In this document: piece by piece, positions 4,758-24,531 of the stretch | Layout: the number at the start of each line of letters is the position of its first letter | Position numbering within the stretch: position 1 is the stretch's first letter | From: a virus | Virus record (IMG/VR): IMGVR_UViG_3300030060_000673 | Coordinates: 1-29,485 of that record | Reading direction: 5' to 3' (one strand) | Length of the DNA: 29,485 nt | Notes under the pieces: model-generated | Databases searched by the model: none | Seen by the model: the letters and a program-made list of their open reading frames with translations, nothing else | Told to the model about the DNA's origin: nothing | Translations under genes and position numbers: made by a program

Positions 4758-4981
4758 CTTTTATCACATTTCTTTCCAGAGAACTTTTCTACGCCACTAA
4801 TTCCAAAACAACCTAGCACAACCCAAACAAAAGAATCATAAACAAACTCGTTTATAATTAAGTCTTTGCCTATCCAGCCAGTAAGTAAATCAGCAATCAT
4901 TATTAAACACATTATTAAGAAAGCCACAAAACCAATTATAGCTTTTTCGTTCCAGTTATTGTTATCTTTAAATATATTCAT
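4745..4981 (-). CDS. Small holin-like membrane protein
   Basis: This 78-residue protein has a strong hydrophobic helix at about residues 13-37 and a second at about 47-63 (FVYDSFVWVVLGCFGISG). It ends in a basic, Cys-containing KKCDKSCNK tail. Two spans with charged ends fit a class II-like holin or antiholin. A different 3TM holin is encoded 1.1 kb downstream, so the pair could form a holin and pinholin or antiholin set. Its start overlaps the upstream stop (TAATG at 4981). Confidence 0.5.
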   Translation of the reverse strand: MNIFKDNNNWNEKAIIGFVAFLIMCLIMIADLLTGWIGKDLIINEFVYDSFVWVVLGCFGISGVEKFSGKKCDKSCNK

Positions 4982-5520
4982 TATAATTTATATTTTATTA
5001 AACCATTTTGTATGTAAATTCCTTCTGCTCTTTTTATGATTTTACCATTAAGATCATAAAGTAAGCCAGTATTTTTTGACTTGTCTAACAGCTCTTGCAT
5101 ACCACTATTGCATGGAAGTCCAGTAACGCAATCAATATATTCTGTTATAATGATTTCTTGAAACTCTACAATAGTGTCTGTTAGATATTCTGTTTGTATT
5201 ATCGTATCTGTTTGTATTATTGGCACTTCTACATAAACTGTGTCACATTCATTTTGTGGAACACATTGTTCAATTGGCGTAGGCACTGCGTCTTGTTCGT
5301 CGCTTCCGTCAACGCAATCGTTCCAGTTGTCGTTTAAATAAAACAAGCCACCAACACCATTAGGCACGCAACCCAAAGGACTATATTGTGTCCAGTTGCT
5401 AACGTCATCGCCACAATAAAAGCCATTAGCTTCGGCACAAGCTATACATAATTCTTGAAAGTCATAGTCTTGTGCAAAAGAAAACGCACTAATAAACAAT
5501 AACAACAATAATTTTTTCAT
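4981..5520 (-). CDS. Secreted Cys-rich protein, LDLa-like motif and sorting-like C-terminus
   Basis: This 179-residue protein begins with a clear signal peptide (MKKLLLLLFISAFSFAQ, cleavage near 16-17). Nine Cys residues (25, 28, 36, 51, 69, 86, 92, 131, 137) follow. NWNDCVDGSDE at 65-75 copies the calcium-binding end of an LDL-receptor class A repeat, though one of the six usual Cys is missing. Residues 95-130 are Thr/Ile-rich. The end (LYDLNGKIIKRAEGIYIQNG, then IKYKL) resembles the strand pattern of type IX secretion C-terminal sorting domains of Bacteroidota. The inferred location is periplasm or cell surface. The role is unknown, and the homology calls are by eye. Confidence 0.55.
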   Translation of the reverse strand: MKKLLLLLFISAFSFAQDYDFQELCIACAEANGFYCGDDVSNWTQYSPLGCVPNGVGGLFYLNDNWNDCVDGSDEQDAVPTPIEQCVPQNECDTVYVEVPIIQTDTIIQTEYLTDTIVEFQEIIITEYIDCVTGLPCNSGMQELLDKSKNTGLLYDLNGKIIKRAEGIYIQNGLIKYKL

Positions 5521-5522
5521 AG

Positions 5523-6548
5523 CTAAAAGATTAAATAATTAAAACCAAACTTGCTTTCATATATAGGCTTCCCCCAAACGTAGATGTGCTTGCCTTCAAT
5601 AAAGAAACCTAAAGACTTATTTACTTTAAGTCCTAAAATAGCTCCAGAATCCCATTCTAAGCTCTCTAAGGCACTATCTCCATACTCATAAGAGTATTCG
5701 TCCAAACCATAGTGAAAAGGCATTAGATTCGCCCAAATGTGAATCCAGTATTTTGGAGAGTATTTATAGAACGATAAACCAGCTACGAAGCTAATTTCTT
5801 TTTGCATACCTAATTTGTCAAGCTCTCTATTGTTAAAGTCTGCAATTGCTTGTCCAAAATAGTGTTTGTAAAACTCGTCATTTGACGTTGCTATTAGTTC
5901 TTCGTTTTTATACCAGTGCCATCTACCATTTACAAGCTCGCTACTATATCCAAACTCCTCAGCTAGTTGTGAAAAAGATTGTTCTCCAGCAATCCAAAAG
6001 TCTTCAATCGGTGTATAGCCATAAGGATCATGAACACGAAAAACAGCTCCAAAAGTAAAGTCAAAATTGCCTTTAGTTATTCTAAGTCTTGCGTCTGCTG
6101 AATTGTATCTAAGCTCTACTCTTTGATTGTCTATGTATTGTGCTTTAACAACAAAGCGTTTACCTAAATATCGAAGCCAATAAGTTTGCTGAGTAAATAT
6201 GTCACCACGATTACGCACCAATGAATAATTGGCAAGGTACTCAAAGCCAGTGCTATTACCAATAAGAACATCGTCAGAACTACTCTTATTGCTTTCGTTT
6301 CCATAATACCATGTAGTAAGTTTTTTCTCATAATCAAAACGTGCTTTTTTTCGTATTCCAATACTTAGATTGTAGTCAAAAGGATTTATTTGTGTAACGT
6401 CTTCGTAGCCTTTGTCAATAGAAATATAGTTTTGTCTTTCTACCATACTTGTATTTACATTCATAGAAGTATAGATAGTCGAATACTTAAAGAAGTCTAT
6501 TTGACTAAACGATAAAAATGGAATTAATAATAGTAAATATTTTATCAT
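5523..6548 (-). CDS. Outer-membrane beta-barrel-like protein
   Basis: A 341-residue protein with a signal peptide (MIKYLLLLIPFLSFSQ) and then many alternating, aromatic-rich strands (for example RFVVKAQYIDNQRVELRY and FDFTFGAVFRV). It ends in a terminal strand FGFNYLIF with the C-terminal Phe typical of proteins folded by the BAM machinery. Phages rarely carry such genes; in flavobacterial phages similar proteins occur, function unknown. Possible roles are masking the receptor against superinfection or weakening the outer membrane at lysis. The start overlaps the upstream stop by 4 nt (ATGA) and the next gene, also exported, begins 2 nt after its stop. Confidence 0.6.
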   Translation of the reverse strand: MIKYLLLLIPFLSFSQIDFFKYSTIYTSMNVNTSMVERQNYISIDKGYEDVTQINPFDYNLSIGIRKKARFDYEKKLTTWYYGNESNKSSSDDVLIGNSTGFEYLANYSLVRNRGDIFTQQTYWLRYLGKRFVVKAQYIDNQRVELRYNSADARLRITKGNFDFTFGAVFRVHDPYGYTPIEDFWIAGEQSFSQLAEEFGYSSELVNGRWHWYKNEELIATSNDEFYKHYFGQAIADFNNRELDKLGMQKEISFVAGLSFYKYSPKYWIHIWANLMPFHYGLDEYSYEYGDSALESLEWDSGAILGLKVNKSLGFFIEGKHIYVWGKPIYESKFGFNYLIF

Positions 6549-7756: not shown

Positions 7757-9997
7757 TTATCCAACATTAGTTTTATAACTTCTTTCTTGTTCTTTTCGTG
7801 GCTTTAAAAATCCATGATTCTTCATTCTCCACGTTGTCTTTCTCATTTCAGCATCGTCTGGCATTGGCATCTTGCCACTTGCAAATTGTTGAGAAACTTC
7901 TCTAAAATTGTTTAGTGTTCCGTTTGGTAGATATTCTCCTTCTTGATATTCCTTTCCGTCAACATCTACAAACGTTGTTCCTTTAGGTACTATACGTCTA
8001 AAATAGAACACTCGTTCCCATTTATGTTTACAATTAGCTCCTCCTTTGTAAAGTGCTATGTTGTATGTGTTAGAGCCACCAGCTCCAAAGCCTTTGTTAA
8101 CAGCTTTTGTAGACGCTTTTTCTAGGTCTTCCATTCTATACAATGTTCCAGCTATTGACTTAGCAACCATCTTTTGACAGAACTCTCTACTAGATATTTG
8201 TCCAGTCTTTTTATTTACTGACAATGTTTGCGAGTATCTATATAGTATTCTAAACATACCTATATCGCTAGAGCTATCAGCTACATTTGGTGTTCCAGCT
8301 GGAGCGTAAGCAAACTCATGATAACGCTTGTCAATTTTGTCTTCGTTTATTGAGTCAACGTGTGCCTCAAACCATTCGTCCTTGTCTAGTGTTATACCTA
8401 TGTCATCAAAAAACGAAATGTCTACATTGTCGTCTTTTATAGCTTTTTGTTTAGCGTTTTTTTGAAACTCAGAAACGCTAGTGCTTATCTTTTTTTTTTT
8501 AAGGTTTCGCAAGATGTCTTTTAAGTTTTCAACTAATGGCTTAGGCTCTGGCGTATCTGCAAAAAATCTTTGTGCAACTTCTGGCGGTAGCTGTAAAAAT
8601 TGAATTAAGAATACAATCGCTTGATCTTTGTTCAAAATTCCTTCTTGTACTTTAGCTACAATATCTATTGCACTAGAAATTTGCGCGCCATTATATGAAG
8701 CCTCAACGTCTTGGACTACCTCTACTTCTTCTTCTGGCATTTCTTCATTTATTGGTGTTTCTACTACTTCTCCATCTGGAACTACTACTGCGTCATCTTC
8801 TATGTCTATTCCTTCTGTCTGTTCGTCTATTGCGTCAATTATATCTAAGTCTAAGAAGTCAGCTGGCTTTAATGTTTTAAAGTATATGTCTAAACTATCT
8901 ATGCCGTTAATTCTAAATATCTGGTCAAGTGATTCCAAGAGTGTGGATTGAAATGGCTTGATGCAAGTAGAATTGAAAAGACTATAAGAATCTCTTAACT
9001 CGTCTGCATTGCTTCCAAAACCAGATTCAGCTTTCACGCCAAAAAGGAGAGGCGACGTGACTCTATGCGCCGTTAAAATTTTTCGACTTACTTCTTGCGA
9101 CAAGAACTGATATTTGTCGTCATTGTCTCCAGTGTTTAACGGCACAACTTCTGGTGTTGTTTCTTTGCCGTCGTTAAAAGTTATAATTAGTTTACCACTA
9201 TTTCCAGAGCCGCTAAACTTTTCGTTAAGTTTACGCTCAACTTGTTGACGCTCCATATCGGTAGGTATTCCATTGGAAAAATTAACCATACAGCTAGGCA
9301 TAAAGTTGTTGTCTATATTAGCTAAATGTAGTTCCGCAATCGACATATCGAGCTGTATAAAATCCGTCCCCCCGATGTAATCACAAATTCCATAATAGAA
9401 TGACTGTGGATTGTATTCCTTAACTTGCATTAGTTGACTTGTTTCTGTTCTGTCTTCTGGATTAAAAGCCTTAATGATTCTTGGCTTATACTTTCTAATA
9501 TTGCTCCAGTCATAACAATAGTAATACTCATTAACCTTGCCGTAGCTATCAGCCTTGCCAGAGCGTATGTATTGAGCTGGAATGTGTTTTATTTCATGGA
9601 TAGCTGTTTTAGCCTTATTCCAAATAACGTTGATGTAACACGTTCCAAATAGCTTTAAATCAAACGCTAGGTTTTTTATTGTGTTTCTACTTCCAGTTTT
9701 TAGTAGTTTATTAAACTTTAAATATTGTTCTTTTGCGTCGCCCTCTAGTTCGTCTTTGTCAACAACGTCTAGTCCTTGACAGGTGCTTTGCTGATCTCCA
9801 GCAATCATAGCTGACACACCTTTGATAATAGCTGAGTTTATTCCAGAGCCAGTAAACAATTCTATTAAGTATTGTGGATATAAATTATCTGCTCCAAAAT
9901 AGATGTACTCTTTATCGTCTTTTTCAACAATGTGTGGTATGTTATAATGTGCTAACTCAACCACTGATAAATCATATTTGTTTTTCTTTTTAGCCAT
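7757..9997 (-). CDS. Portal protein with long C-terminal extension
   Basis: A 746-residue protein. Residues 1 to about 400 look like a Bacteroidota-phage portal: YFGADNLYPQYLIELFTGS near 33-51, then a clip/stem region with TAHRVTSPLLFGVKAE. An acidic linker (about 400-450) follows, then an LPPEVAQRFF helical region and a separate domain at about 540-740 (FRILYRYSQTLSVN, SREFCQKMVAKS, CKHKWERVFYFRR). The C-terminal domain has an unknown role, perhaps inside the head or in capsid maturation. An A11 run (complement of 8490-8500) codes Lys500-503 between the parts. Its start overlaps the upstream stop (TAATG). Confidence 0.75.
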   Translation of the reverse strand: MAKKKNKYDLSVVELAHYNIPHIVEKDDKEYIYFGADNLYPQYLIELFTGSGINSAIIKGVSAMIAGDQQSTCQGLDVVDKDELEGDAKEQYLKFNKLLKTGSRNTIKNLAFDLKLFGTCYINVIWNKAKTAIHEIKHIPAQYIRSGKADSYGKVNEYYYCYDWSNIRKYKPRIIKAFNPEDRTETSQLMQVKEYNPQSFYYGICDYIGGTDFIQLDMSIAELHLANIDNNFMPSCMVNFSNGIPTDMERQQVERKLNEKFSGSGNSGKLIITFNDGKETTPEVVPLNTGDNDDKYQFLSQEVSRKILTAHRVTSPLLFGVKAESGFGSNADELRDSYSLFNSTCIKPFQSTLLESLDQIFRINGIDSLDIYFKTLKPADFLDLDIIDAIDEQTEGIDIEDDAVVVPDGEVVETPINEEMPEEEVEVVQDVEASYNGAQISSAIDIVAKVQEGILNKDQAIVFLIQFLQLPPEVAQRFFADTPEPKPLVENLKDILRNLKKKKISTSVSEFQKNAKQKAIKDDNVDISFFDDIGITLDKDEWFEAHVDSINEDKIDKRYHEFAYAPAGTPNVADSSSDIGMFRILYRYSQTLSVNKKTGQISSREFCQKMVAKSIAGTLYRMEDLEKASTKAVNKGFGAGGSNTYNIALYKGGANCKHKWERVFYFRRIVPKGTTFVDVDGKEYQEGEYLPNGTLNNFREVSQQFASGKMPMPDDAEMRKTTWRMKNHGFLKPRKEQERSYKTNVG

Positions 9998-10464
9998 TAT
10001 ACATAAGTGTTTGTTAGATAAACTTGTTGTTGTTGTGTGCTTTCATATTCTGTGTAATCAACAGCTTGATTTACTGTTGTTGCACTATAAAGATTCATTA
10101 ATCCCATATAAGACAATTGCAAACCAGTTGCGTCTAAATTAGAAGAAGACGTGTTTTTATATATTTCCATATCATAAAGTCCATAAGGAAAGTCTTTATA
10201 GCCAACATATATAACACCAACAGCTGGAACATGAGTGCCAGTAGAATAAGATGTAGTAAATGTCATTTTAAAATATCTTTGTTTATATGTCAAATCTAAA
10301 CTCGTTGGAATAAACGTCATAGACTTGTTTGTTTCTTGACTTGTAATTTTAACTAAAGGCGTAAAAAAAAATGGACTATCTGTTGGATATAAATAACTAT
10401 CAAAGAGATTTACATACATAATATTGGTGCTTCCAGCTTGTGACAATCTGCTAACTTGTATCAT
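9997..10464 (-). CDS. Hypothetical structural protein near portal
   Basis: A 155-residue beta-rich protein without catalytic motifs. The central GYKDFPYGLYDMEIYKN and following LDATGLQLSYMGLMNL resemble a conserved protein I know from Bacteroidota phage structural clusters (a YxYxIYE-like segment followed by LExGxxxV). The C-terminus is glutamine-rich (ESTQQQQVYL). It starts in an ATGA overlap with the preceding small gene and ends in TAATG with the portal gene, so its expression is coupled to portal production. A minor virion or head-decoration role is likely but unproven. Confidence 0.5.
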   Translation of the reverse strand: MIQVSRLSQAGSTNIMYVNLFDSYLYPTDSPFFFTPLVKITSQETNKSMTFIPTSLDLTYKQRYFKMTFTTSYSTGTHVPAVGVIYVGYKDFPYGLYDMEIYKNTSSSNLDATGLQLSYMGLMNLYSATTVNQAVDYTEYESTQQQQVYLTNTYV

Positions 10465-14127: not shown

Positions 14128-14163
14128 TTTTTTATAAATATATTTAGCTTAATTTTGTTTATA
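14128..14163 (-). promoter_or_regulatory. Repeated late-promoter-like element, protease copy
   Basis: The minus strand reads TAAACAAAATTAAGCTAAATA followed by TATTTATAAAAAA, ending about 8 nt before the ATG at 14119. It shares both blocks with the copy at 10755-10790, with different spacing between them. Confidence 0.5.
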
Positions 14164-16096
14164 AAGTGGCTTGATTTTCTAGCTCCTCTTGCAAGGCTTG
14201 AGCGTTAGAAATATCGTTCTCAATAACATAGGCTTGCAACGCTGTGTCTGTTCCAGCACCAACTAAATTTTCTGTCAATTGCGACGGAATCATTGATTGG
14301 ACATTGTCTTCTGAAAAAGTTTCTGAAACAACTTCGTCTTCGCCTCCACCGCCTCCACCGCCTCCACCACCACCGACGTTGGCTTCTGCTAGTGTTGCTC
14401 TTGCACTTGCGACACCAGCTATAACAGCTCCAACACCAGTTAAGATTGCTCCTAAATTAGCTGGAAACGGAACGGCTTGTGCTTGTTTTATTGCTCCAGC
14501 AACAGCAATAGCTGTGTCTATTAATATCTGTGCCATAGCGGCTCTTTTTCTTTGTCTGTTGGCTTCTTCTTCAATCTCTAGTCTGCGTTCTTCGTATTCC
14601 TCTTGACTTATATTTCCAGCCTCTAATTCAGCATCTAAGGCGGAAATACTTTCTTGTGCGTTAGTTTGTTGAATTTGTGAAATAGAATCTAACATTCCTT
14701 GAATAGCATTTACTGATTGAAAAAAACCATCTTGCAATTGTTGTTGAAACTCTGCGTTTTCTACTAAAAGTTCAGCCATTTGTTCGTTAGTATATTCGCC
14801 AACCTCATCTAAAGTGTAACCCATAGCTTGTAACTCTGCTAACAATTTATCTCTAGTAGCATCTACTGTGACTGTAAACGCTTGTGTTTCTTGATTAAAC
14901 AATTCCATTATCTGACGCATTTGTTGAGCGTATAGTGTTTCAGCCTCTTGATTTTTTTCTATTAGCTGTGATGTCATATTTTCTTGCTCTCCCAATAAAG
15001 CGTTGTTATTAGCTATTGTTTGGTCTAATAAAGTTTTAGCGGCGGTTTCTGCGTTAGTTCTTTTTCTCATTGCGTCTTCATCTCTCAACTGAGTTTCAGT
15101 TAGTAGAGAACGTCTAACCTCATCAAGAACATCTTGTGATGACTTTATTTTATCTTGTGATATTTTTTGTTCTTCTGCGGCTTGTCTCATTCTTTCGTCA
15201 TGATTAGCTTTTTCAGTTGCCGCTATTTCTCTAACTATGCCGTTAATTTTATTGTTAAGCTCTATTTGTTTAGTGCCAGATTCTTGTCTAAGGTTTGCAA
15301 CAGCTATTAATAGTTCCGCTTCTCTGTCTAAGTCTGCGGCTGTGTTTTCTCCCATAGCCATTTTCTCTTGTTGTATTCTTAGCTCCTCCTCTGCGTTTTC
15401 TACTCGTTTGTCTAATAAGTCTTGCTCTATTTGAAACGCTTGTCTAGCGGCATTTAGTCTTGTTTCTTCGTCTTTTGACAAGTCTTCTGCAATCAACTTC
15501 AACGCTTCAACTTCTGCTCGTCTTTGTGCTGTTTCTACATTCAGCTCTCTTTGGCTATCTCTTATTCTTATTGTTGCGTCAGCTAGATCATTAGCTAGCT
15601 TTATTTCTTCTTTTATTTCTTTGCCAATTCCTTTTAAAGAATCAGTCATGTCTTTAGCCGCACCTTTAAAGTCTCCTTTAAATACTTTCATAACGCCTCT
15701 ACCAAAACCAGCTATTCTGTCTGTAACTACTTTTATTCCAGCTCCTAACGATGTCAAAACTTTTTCTAATATTTCTGCTCCGTCTTTTGTCTGTGTAAAG
15801 TATGTTACAAGCGAGCCTATGGCTAAAACAAACGCTCCAATTCCAGTTGAAAGCAATCCAACATAAATAGACTTAAACATCTTTTTAGCTGTTCCAGTTG
15901 TAGCTACAAAGGCTTTTTGAACACTGCCCAGATTAGTGCCTAAGATGTCAACTTCTCCCCATGCGTCTGTCAAACTAGATGAAAGACTGTCTGCTTCTTT
16001 TTTACTTTTCTTTATATCAGAGCCGAGTTTGTCCATTTTCTTTCCACCATCTGACGCTCCTTTAACATTAATATTTACATTTATTTCTTCCGCCAT
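14159..16096 (-). CDS. Tail tape measure protein
   Basis: A 645-residue protein with the composition of a tape measure. It starts with MAEEINVNINVKGASDGGKK, has a hydrophobic stretch at about 75-112 (GLLSTGIGAFVLAIGSLVTY), then very long charged, Ala-rich helices across about 150-510, and a second hydrophobic, Ala/Gly segment at about 520-565 (AQILIDTAIAVAGAIKQAQA). An 11-residue Gly run coded at 14344-14376 separates a short C-terminal tail. At roughly 0.15 nm per residue it implies a tail near 100 nm. It overlaps the upstream 59-aa gene by 16 nt. Unusually, it is followed by the protease gene and not by distal tail genes. Confidence 0.75.
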   Translation of the reverse strand: MAEEINVNINVKGASDGGKKMDKLGSDIKKSKKEADSLSSSLTDAWGEVDILGTNLGSVQKAFVATTGTAKKMFKSIYVGLLSTGIGAFVLAIGSLVTYFTQTKDGAEILEKVLTSLGAGIKVVTDRIAGFGRGVMKVFKGDFKGAAKDMTDSLKGIGKEIKEEIKLANDLADATIRIRDSQRELNVETAQRRAEVEALKLIAEDLSKDEETRLNAARQAFQIEQDLLDKRVENAEEELRIQQEKMAMGENTAADLDREAELLIAVANLRQESGTKQIELNNKINGIVREIAATEKANHDERMRQAAEEQKISQDKIKSSQDVLDEVRRSLLTETQLRDEDAMRKRTNAETAAKTLLDQTIANNNALLGEQENMTSQLIEKNQEAETLYAQQMRQIMELFNQETQAFTVTVDATRDKLLAELQAMGYTLDEVGEYTNEQMAELLVENAEFQQQLQDGFFQSVNAIQGMLDSISQIQQTNAQESISALDAELEAGNISQEEYEERRLEIEEEANRQRKRAAMAQILIDTAIAVAGAIKQAQAVPFPANLGAILTGVGAVIAGVASARATLAEANVGGGGGGGGGGGEDEVVSETFSEDNVQSMIPSQLTENLVGAGTDTALQAYVIENDISNAQALQEELENQATL

Positions 16097-21726: not shown

Positions 21727-22246
21727 CGTTCATAGATTGTGGAACATCACAAAGATTGTTCGTGTTTTGACAAGTAATATTAAACGTCGTACCCCAGCCA
21801 CTAAGACTGTTAGAAAAACGAGCTGTAAATGGTGTGCAACTTAAAGGCATTTCAATATCAATTCTAGCATCGACATAACTTCCAGTCTGTATGTTTTGCC
21901 TAAAGTTTGCTATAACATCTTTTAACGTAAGTAGTGTTTGAGAATAAGCGTCAATTAATGGACGTCTAGTTTGTGATAATTCAGCAACCTCAATATCCTC
22001 ATTGACTTGGTCTGCTATTAAAACGTCGATTGAATAAGTTATAGTTTGCTCATCTACAATTGCACCGACTGGTGTTGCGTGCATTAATGGAAACAGATTT
22101 AAGTCCATTTTTACAATGTCAACTTCTTCTAAACTTCGTGTGTAAAAACTATGTATGTTTTTATGATTAAATTGTATGTCGTACAATATCGTCATTATTT
22201 GACGTATTGTCATATTCCTATAAGTTTGATTTGCTGATGTTGCCAT
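21716..22246 (-). CDS. Tail terminator-like protein
   Basis: I set the start at the ATG complementing 22244-22246 (MATSANQTYRNMT, 176 aa). The longer frame from 22288 lies inside the chaperone extension. The protein has an N-terminal helix (RQIMTILYDIQFNHKNIHSF), strands around LNLFPLMHATPVGAIVDEQT, a helix YSQTLLTLKDVIANFRQN, and C-terminal strands (RIDIEMPLSCTPFTARF). The helix-strand order and its place before the gp10-like gene resemble tail terminator or DUF3168-like proteins. Assignment is structural reasoning, not a clear sequence match. It overlaps the extension's stop by 29 nt. Confidence 0.45.
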   Translation of the reverse strand: MATSANQTYRNMTIRQIMTILYDIQFNHKNIHSFYTRSLEEVDIVKMDLNLFPLMHATPVGAIVDEQTITYSIDVLIADQVNEDIEVAELSQTRRPLIDAYSQTLLTLKDVIANFRQNIQTGSYVDARIDIEMPLSCTPFTARFSNSLSGWGTTFNITCQNTNNLCDVPQSMNDGV

Positions 22247-22516
22247 GTCTTTCCTTTTGTAGTATAAATTTGTCTTGCTTATATGCAAGAAACGTTAGTG
22301 CTTGATAGATGCCTATTTTAGTGACTGCATCTATTTTAGTTATATCTCCTCCAGCCATTTCGTAAAGCAAAGCATACCAACCCCACTTGTCAGTGTATCT
22401 GTCTTCTGTTGTTACCCTCCGCTCTTGCTTCGTTCCTTTATTCTGGACAATGTCTGTTTTCTCAAATAGTTGCGAGAATCTTGTATAAGTGTTTTTTCTA
22501 AATGAAAAAAAAAATT
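22218..22516 (-). CDS. -1 frame extension of the chaperone-like gene (frameshift product)
   Basis: On the minus strand the -1 frame opens immediately after a TAA that abuts the T10 slippery run (T TTT TTT) and stays open to a TAG at 22218. It covers about 96 codons and includes DKWGWYALLYEMAGGDITKI and GIYQALTFLAYKQDKF. The WGWY and GDITK segments are ones I associate with tail-chaperone relatives in Bacteroidota phages. No ATG, GTG or TTG precedes WGWY in this frame, so expression needs a -1 slip. The short form would end at 22412. A base-count error in the run is the alternative. Confidence 0.6.
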
Positions 22517-23017
22517 AAGAACGCCTAGTGCTTCTCCCATTGGAAATTGCAACATTGCTTCTTGTTTTTCTGGCGTCGGATTATAGTCCTCCACATTATA
22601 CCTTCCCCATCTATCTACTTCGGCTGTTTGTTTTCTATACAATACAGCCATTATTTTGTGCAAATTTTCAACAGCATCTAAAACATAATTCTCTAAATCT
22701 ACAAACTCTCCAGTTGTCATTTCTGACATCTTAGGCATAAGAGAATAAGTAGTGCCATTGAAGTCTAAATGTTTTTTAACTTCTATTTTTGAGGGATCAT
22801 CTTTTGTTAGTTTCATTAATATAGAGCTAACCTTTTCTAAATCAGCCAACGCAAACGCTCTCAAATCCTCTTTCTTTACATTGCAAAACAACATTATCAT
22901 TTCAAACATCTTTTGCTTTTCCTTCTTTTTACTATCTACTAAAACCATGAATTTTTGGTATTGCTCGATAGTTATGTCGTTCCAATTCGTTGGAACTTTT
23001 AGTTTTATCTGTTTCAT
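22412..23017 (-). CDS. Tail assembly chaperone-like protein, short form
   Basis: A 201-residue protein beginning MKQIKLKVPTNWNDITIEQY, then helical sections with LFCNVKKEDL, FNGTTYSLMPKMSEMTTGEF (about 86-105) and an FFFHLEKTLIQ end. This resembles tail-chaperone-like proteins of Bacteroidota phages, in which a gpG-like short form and a frameshifted long form fold the tape measure. A T10 run (complement of 22505-22514) occurs near codons 168-171 and the -1 frame is open beyond it (see the next entry). Unusually it directly follows the terminase, about 6 kb from the tape-measure gene. Confidence 0.55.
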   Translation of the reverse strand: MKQIKLKVPTNWNDITIEQYQKFMVLVDSKKKEKQKMFEMIMLFCNVKKEDLRAFALADLEKVSSILMKLTKDDPSKIEVKKHLDFNGTTYSLMPKMSEMTTGEFVDLENYVLDAVENLHKIMAVLYRKQTAEVDRWGRYNVEDYNPTPEKQEAMLQFPMGEALGVLNFFFHLEKTLIQDSRNYLRKQTLSRIKERSKSGG

Positions 23018-23048: not shown

Positions 23049-24227
23049 TTAGCTTATATAATACTTGCCAGAATAAGACACCATGAGCTTATTCAAACAT
23101 ACATATCTAACAGCATCTATGGCGTGATTAAAAGCGTCTATTGGCTTGTTAGTGATTTCGTTGTTCTTGTCTTTAATCCATTTGTAATTCCTAAATTCTT
23201 TTATAGCATTGACACTTCTTTTAGTAATATTTAGCTTGTGTCTTTTCATAACGTCTATGCCTATTCTTATAGAGTCTGCTCCTTTTTTAGCTGGCTTTAT
23301 ATTTATGCCAGTATTCATTCGATAGATTTCTTCAATACTCTTAGGCTCGCTCGAGTCGGCAAAACATTCTGCTCCTCTTTGTATTTGCAAGTCTTTTATC
23401 TTGTTTCCAATATCTTGATTTGTTAGTCCTTTTTGATATATAAGCTCGTCTACATACAAGTCTAAGTCGTGTTTGTGTACTGACACCAATGTTGTCGGGT
23501 CAGCTGAATAGCCGAAGTCTAAGCCATAAGAAACTAGATTTGCATTGTCTGGCACTTTGTCTACTATATTAAATGACGGGAAAATGGTTTCAGTAGCCAC
23601 CCCACGTTGCCCTTCGCCAAAAACCCGCCATAAATTTTCGTCCACTTCTTTTAGTCTTTCAATTTCTGCTATTGTAGATTCTTCTAAGAATGGATTGTCT
23701 TTATAAGTAGACACAAAGAAGTCTACGTCCTCTCTGTCTGCGTCTATTATTTGTGTGTATAACCAGTGATATTCGTCACTTGGATTAAAGTCTATAATGA
23801 TTTTAAATGATGTTCTAAGTACCAATTGAGTGTAACTATCAAAGTCAAACTCATTGCACTCGTTTAAAAACAATATCTCTCTTTTACGACCACGCACTCT
23901 CATTGGCTGGTCAATGGATATAAACTCAAAATGGTTGCCGTAAAGATGATATAAAGCACTAGACTTGTTGTGGTTTCGCTCATCGTATAAATTCTCTTTT
24001 TTAAGTATGTCAAAGAAATCACGCATTGCAGTTCCTCTTAGTGCTGGAAAAGTCTTTCTAGCTATTGTTATGTATAGTCCTTTGCCTTTGTTCTTATACG
24101 CAAACTCTATTAGTGCTAACAATATAGAATAGGTCTTTCCGCTTCTCGTTCCGCCTTGTAGAACGCATATTCTTTTAGTTGAGCTTTTTACATCATAATA
24201 TGGCTTAGCTTGTTTCTTCATCGTCAT
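23049..24227 (-). CDS. terL: Terminase large subunit
   Basis: The start is set at ATG 24227 (MTMKKQAKPYYDV; MKKQAK six bases later is equally possible). Reading from 24263 would overlap the small-subunit gene further. The protein is about 392 residues. It carries Walker A GGTRSGKT near the N-terminus, Walker B-like ILFLNECNEF with the catalytic acidic pair, and a coupling SFKIIIDFNPS segment. In the nuclease domain are LDFGYSADPT (first Asp), ADSSEP and DAFNHAIDAVRY (last acidic ligands). This is the PBSX/Terminase_3 type motor that cuts and packages phage DNA. It overlaps terS by 23 nt. Confidence 0.9.
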   Translation of the reverse strand: MTMKKQAKPYYDVKSSTKRICVLQGGTRSGKTYSILLALIEFAYKNKGKGLYITIARKTFPALRGTAMRDFFDILKKENLYDERNHNKSSALYHLYGNHFEFISIDQPMRVRGRKREILFLNECNEFDFDSYTQLVLRTSFKIIIDFNPSDEYHWLYTQIIDADREDVDFFVSTYKDNPFLEESTIAEIERLKEVDENLWRVFGEGQRGVATETIFPSFNIVDKVPDNANLVSYGLDFGYSADPTTLVSVHKHDLDLYVDELIYQKGLTNQDIGNKIKDLQIQRGAECFADSSEPKSIEEIYRMNTGINIKPAKKGADSIRIGIDVMKRHKLNITKRSVNAIKEFRNYKWIKDKNNEITNKPIDAFNHAIDAVRYVCLNKLMVSYSGKYYIS

Positions 24228-24531
24228 TAATCCAAGACGGAGGACTAGCACTAACATTGACATTTTGGTCTGGCAATCCTTCTATTCTGTCTAATATTTC
24301 TTTTATTGCTTTTAGCTTTTCATTGTTATTCGAGTCTTTGTGGAACGCTATTTGTATTAACATCTTTGCTATTGGCGAGCCAAAGTCTCCAACTCCTCCC
24401 ATGTTAGTATCTTGTGTTGCTAGTAATTCTTTCAATACAGTAGCTACATTTCTTCTTCCTTTAGGACGTCCACGTTTTTCTGGCTGATTCTCAGAACTAA
24501 ATCTTGTTGCTTTATTTGGAAATTTATTCAT
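24205..24531 (-). CDS. Small terminase-like DNA-binding protein
   Basis: A 108-residue protein directly before the large terminase. It has a polar N-terminus with FSSENQPEKRGRPKGRRN, the AT-hook-like GRPKG segment typical of DUF5681 proteins, followed by two helices (NVATVLKELLATQ, SPIAKMLIQIAFH, EKLKAIKEILDRI). The tail is acidic (SWINDDEETS). These short proteins are commonly the small packaging subunit or packaging-linked factors in phages of this kind. The DNA site is unknown. Confidence 0.65.
   Translation of the reverse strand: MNKFPNKATRFSSENQPEKRGRPKGRRNVATVLKELLATQDTNMGGVGDFGSPIAKMLIQIAFHKDSNNNEKLKAIKEILDRIEGLPDQNVNVSASPPSWINDDEETS

Follow-up and report, generated by a model that had tools for sequence, protein, structure and literature searches.

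Tail assembly chaperones of the gpG/gpGT type bind the tape measure and the tail tube, are absent from virions and are made in a fixed product ratio. Few recoding events are as widespread in phages as the frame change in tail-chaperone genes, for which a ribosomal mechanism is described. For a -1 shift by the ribosome, a site of seven bases is needed, X XXY YYZ (here T TTT TTT), the last of which may in principle be a C; slippage of the RNA polymerase requires a long run, with a threshold at about nine A or T (PMC1088944, PMC5009743). In the case of phage lambda, the ribosomal -1 shift in G/T is established and widely conserved (PMC5009743). Runs of T9 or A9 are described as slippage sites, and in E. 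coli U_UUU_UUU is a weaker site of ribosomal shifting than A_AAA_AAG (PMC5009743). In bacterial slippage genes, a homopolymer gives rise to mRNAs of several lengths and to two proteins (PMC1088944, PMC4256274, PMC5009743); the closest to the present case in function is Citrobacter tssM1, where a secretion protein is made in two lengths from an A11 run (PMC4256274). In many bacterial genomes, coding regions show evident selection against runs of A/T once these reach nine (PMC1088944).

The gene studied here, hereafter the slip gene, lies in an IMG/VR virus record of 29,485 bases and 34% GC, the whole of which is called the window. Like lambda gpG/gpGT, it would give two products with a shared N-terminus, the second ending in a C-terminal domain reached by changing to the -1 frame shortly before the first ORF ends, and its N part has a tail PHROG match. 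Unlike the lambda pair, which stands directly before the tape measure gene, it follows the terminase gene and precedes the probable tape measure gene by four genes; its run is a poly-T of 9-11 where lambda has a heptamer, and it gave no match to the PHROGs of the lambda G/T and TP901-1 chaperones. With Thermus dnaX, Citrobacter tssM1, Shigella mxiE and IS elements it shares a homopolymer of 9-11 A or T (PMC1088944, PMC4256274, PMC5009743). It differs from these bacterial genes in being a phage tail-type gene whose T run is kept over hundreds of phages, and in that we infer the slippage.

The nearest isolate relatives for the slip gene are the Nonlabens phages P12024S and P12024L, which would point to a marine Bacteroidota as the host of the window. 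Their gp38-gp39 region is alike in that gp38 corresponds to the N form, that P12024S has a -1 extension from a T9 run and that the N ORF of P12024L is matched; it is only about 24% identical, and the two genes are annotated as hypothetical with the frameshift not noted. In P12024S (L001, 2510-3201), gp38 and gp39 are annotated separately with the T9 junction between them. They are very probably one recoded gene, and the annotated start of gp39 is likely to be wrong.

Results

The T10 run noticed in the preliminary description is present on the minus strand, inside the 201-aa ORF of the tail-chaperone-like gene (Table 1). A TAA in the -1 frame lies directly before it, so that the extension is unable to start 5' of the run; from there the -1 frame stays open up to its TAG, and it contains both the WGWY and the GDITK stretches, with no ATG, GTG or TTG before WGWY. 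These points agree with what had been described, except for the length: the extension counts 98 codons from T10 and about 64 beyond the stop at 22412, instead of about 96 codons past that stop. It overlaps the next gene, whose ATG is at 22246.

Table 1. Position of the slip gene, its recoding elements and the neighbouring tail and packaging genes in the window.
Feature	Position	Strand	Basis
N form, 0-frame product of 201 aa; gpG-like, probably a tail assembly chaperone	22412..23017	-	phrog_32199 7e-9; phrog_166 'tail protein' 3e-5; AlphaFold2 pLDDT 93.3
T10 slip run, AAT TTT TTT TTT CAT	22505..22514	-	sequence; 9-11 T's in each of the 301 distinct relatives
T TTT TTT heptamer, first in-frame within the run; second = 22505-22511	22508..22514	-	frame from ATG 23017
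-1 frame extension, 98 codons + TAG (22220-22218)	22218..22514	-	conserved FFFSFR...WGW...DITK domain; overlaps next gene's start
-1 frame TAA immediately 5' of the run	22515..22517	-	sequence
TAG in the +1 (remaining) frame, two codons past the run	22498..22500	-	+1 stop within two codons kept in 297/301 relatives
Large terminase gene, directly upstream of the slip gene in the window and relatives	23049..24263	-	also P12024S annotation
Probable tape measure gene, four genes downstream of the slip gene	14159..16096	-	phrog_3336 1.3e-4

Loci of the gene were gathered by scanning IMG/VR with its two parts and also with alignments of the relatives of each. This gave 418 loci, the window and P12024S included, of which six are truncated by a contig end and 412 have both parts complete; some contigs having been fetched repeatedly, one locus was kept per distinct 300-base stretch, leaving 301 junctions. 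Of the 412 viral loci, 411 have the extension in the -1 frame, and the run is a T9 in 214 of the distinct junctions, a T10 in 82 and a T11 in 5, none being shorter. Two earlier and smaller sets, of 120 and 241 junctions, gave the same picture, the latter forming 66 clusters at 80% identity and 10 at 50%. Runs of at least nine T's occur at loci of up to 44% GC, and only five others are found elsewhere in the 737 kb of the first locus set. Conservation of the run and of the extension frame, by which the preliminary description proposed to judge the frameshift, is thus borne out.

The same description had named two observations that would speak against a frameshift: reads with eleven T's giving one continuous frame, and relatives whose extension is not open. 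A gene that had merely lost a base from a true T11 in the assembly, or whose extension is a decaying remnant, could appear as this one does, and such a reading might draw on the single-ORF relatives in Duneviridae and on one locus, L103, which near position 327 is the sole relative to combine T11 (its own relatives have T10) with one continuous frame; L103 is either an error or a fusion at the DNA level that slippage would still split. Among the 412 loci, no other continuous T11 frame was found. A base-calling error is untenable because the 411 agreeing loci come from many separate assemblies and include the isolate P12024S, with its T9 and -1 extension. The comparison of relatives confirms that the -1 arrangement is far beyond chance and no sequencing error; as a general account, artefact or gene decay is refuted by these relatives and by the selection on the extension described below, and retains next to no probability. 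A tblastn with the extension against 50,697 phage records gave no match, and a scan of genome contigs with it found no relative.

Past the normal stop, the differences between related extensions fall on positions 1, 2 and 3 of the -1 codons in the ratio 10166:6086:24108, counted over sequence pairs that are not independent. Such an excess at third positions is the pattern of a translated frame and indicates that the extension is evolving as a protein, under selection at the protein level. In the overlap of the 0 and -1 frames, the third position of the -1 frame is again the most variable, from which the extension, and not the tail of the 0-frame product, seems to be the more constrained. Could the extension be made alone, by internal re-initiation and without fusion? 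In 28 of 72 representatives an ATG, GTG or TTG does occur after the run and ahead of the WxW motif, but the other 44, the relatives of the window included, have no such codon, the conservation of FFFSFR begins at the T run itself, and the fused product matches single-ORF homologues; we therefore give re-initiation hardly any credence. These comparisons give strong support to a programmed -1 change through which an extended product is expressed, and a pair of N and N-plus-extension forms in the manner of gpG/gpGT is well supported.

When one T was added and the products of 73 phages were aligned, the fused protein matched single-ORF proteins over the full length in hhalign (98-99%, E 1e-13 to 1e-16). 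The matches were to three Duneviridae, the Flavobacterium phages 2A and laban6-1 and the Cellulophaga phage Ingeline_1, and to a gut phage; the controls, five with shuffled columns and one reversed, all remained below 1%. Taken by part, the N region alone scored 96% and the extension alone only 33%. Unlike the slip gene, the homologues of 2A, laban6-1 and Ingeline_1 are homologous across the junction in one continuous frame and have no run of at least nine T's. That of Ingeline_1 precedes the annotated tape measure gene by three genes; the fused form thus exists elsewhere as a real protein, encoded in a tail region.

The identity of the product is less direct. The best PHROG of the N part, phrog_32199, is of unknown function, and the weaker 'tail protein' match, phrog_166, was found in 12 of 57 members (E-values in Table 1). 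The AlphaFold2 model of the N part has its best fold matches among uncharacterised phage proteins, that of P12024S included, and in Foldseek it weakly matched (E 4.6e-3) a protein labelled as a tail assembly chaperone; the model of the extension reaches a pLDDT of only 69, and sequence and fold searches of the PDB gave no match. Since the chaperones of lambda and TP901-1 fall into other PHROGs, membership of their family by homology is unproven. The resemblance to gpG/gpGT noted at the outset holds for the pair of N and N+C forms, the tail PHROG match and the full-length homologues in tail regions, but does not extend to the position, as the slip gene and the tape measure gene are not adjacent. 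A tail assembly chaperone is the probable product and our best guess.

Flavobacterium phage 6H was considered as a case of T TTT TTC and set aside: its -1 frame closes at once and its close relatives have single ORFs. Its homologue (L340, 9950-10960) is split in frame, the nearly identical phage 2A having an intact ORF; this split is either a sequencing error or a true loss.

Which machine would change the frame? An in-frame T TTT TTT, the slip site originally put forward, is present in all 301 junctions, as it is contained in any run of at least nine T's. A programmed ribosomal -1 shift at this heptamer, with the extra T's only boosting efficiency or reflecting amino acids, would follow the known mechanism of lambda (PMC5009743). 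For such a shift, however, seven T's would be enough and a TTC would be expected at the third base, and neither occurs in the 301 junctions. The run attains nine or more T's in three codon registers (NNT TTT TTT TTN, NTT TTT TTT TNN and TTT TTT TTT NNN). Where the register is NTT, the second Phe codon ends in T in 125 of 125 cases, although a C at its third base would be silent in both frames (TTT/TTC in frame 0, TTA/TTG against CTA/CTG in frame -1) and would still give the heptamer T TTT TTC. The other Phe codons of the same ORFs comprise 842 TTT and 207 TTC, that is 20% TTC, and aligned Phe columns contain 9-37% TTC. Phylogeny reduces the effective number behind 125/125: with 30 representatives below 80% identity, the expectation is 0.80^30, or about 0.001.

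Stimulatory elements of a ribosomal shift were sought on both sides of the run. Downstream RNA structure gave, for 72 representatives, mean z values of -0.2 to -0.45, near those of the controls and with no signal of a stimulator. Upstream, an SD-like hexamer is in weak excess over the controls, which would favour the ribosome, and is absent from the close relatives L011-L013. The low strength of U_UUU_UUU relative to A_AAA_AAG in E. coli (PMC5009743) also speaks against the ribosome. The heptamer is always there, but the conserved element is the run of at least nine T's, whose last heptamer place is never C, and not the heptamer itself, a pattern that slippage of the RNA polymerase explains at least as well and probably better.

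Other observations weigh against the slippage reading. Some of the extra T's are explained by the residues encoded (the middle T of Leu, Val and Ile codons, the first T of Tyr, Trp and Phe codons), the tree contains about 5-6 changes of register, too few for a significant paired test of co-change, and long runs are not strictly avoided, since the portal gene of the same phage carries an A11. A stop in the +1 frame at most two codons after the run (297/301) would silence transcripts slipped in the opposite direction; we do not lean on it, because it also follows from the frame-0 Leu TTA and the -1 Phe-Arg TTT AGR.

Discussion

The model we propose is that slippage of the RNA polymerase is the main cause of the frame change, which we consider rather likely from the pattern of conservation. 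Most transcripts would carry the ten templated U's and yield the 201-aa N form, and a minority would acquire an altered number of U's through slippage of the polymerase on the T run. One U more or two fewer would put the -1 frame in phase, the resulting product of about 266 aa having the WGW/DITK domain at its end, and transcripts shifted the opposite way would terminate within two codons. The gene would thereby yield, in the gpG/gpGT manner, two proteins that share their N-terminus and probably act as tail assembly chaperones. Ribosomal slippage may contribute, as every run of nine T's holds an in-frame T TTT TTT; as the sole mechanism, the ribosomal shift appears unlikely, though clearly less so than joint slippage of polymerase and ribosome on a run that in principle serves both, which we regard as improbable.

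On balance, a large group of marine Bacteroidota-type phages would set the ratio of its tail chaperones by polymerase slippage at T9-11 and not by a ribosomal shift, and the A11 of the portal gene may behave likewise. If so, there would be a second, independently based route to the gpG/gpGT pair, and if one large group shifts at transcription, either machine could set the ratio of the two proteins. Such genes would be overlooked or wrongly named by annotation tools that seek heptamers, and 'hypothetical' ORFs in hundreds of pairs would gain a function. Searches across 5.39 million open-access papers led to reviews, prediction studies and a small number of papers on phage genomes, among which no description of slippage in a tail-chaperone gene was found. 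The isolate pair P12024S/L, on Nonlabens (Persicivirga) sp. IMCC12024, makes the slippage reading directly testable.

Other features of the window

The portal ORF (7757-9997, minus strand) carries its A11 at 8490-8500, in the linker that joins the portal domain to the C-terminal domain. Both other frames are shut within three codons, so that the portal alone would result from slippage or from a dnaX-like shift at A AAA AAG. Among the portals examined (L348-L368, L369-L382), 17 of 22 have an A9-A11 in this linker, at three different sites; two further portals have A10-A12 there, and several more distant ones have none. In the L006-type group (L383-L387), an ORF of its own, about 385 aa long, encodes the portal, and the C-terminal domain is found in a distant gene, unlike the fused portal of the window.

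A second coding T9 is located at 10363-10371, in a 155-aa ORF (9997-10464; SPFFFTPL). Finally, positions 4981-6548 hold two ORFs of 179 and 341 aa with signal-peptide-like starts and no Pfam match, the 341-aa ORF ending in Phe as an outer-membrane barrel does.
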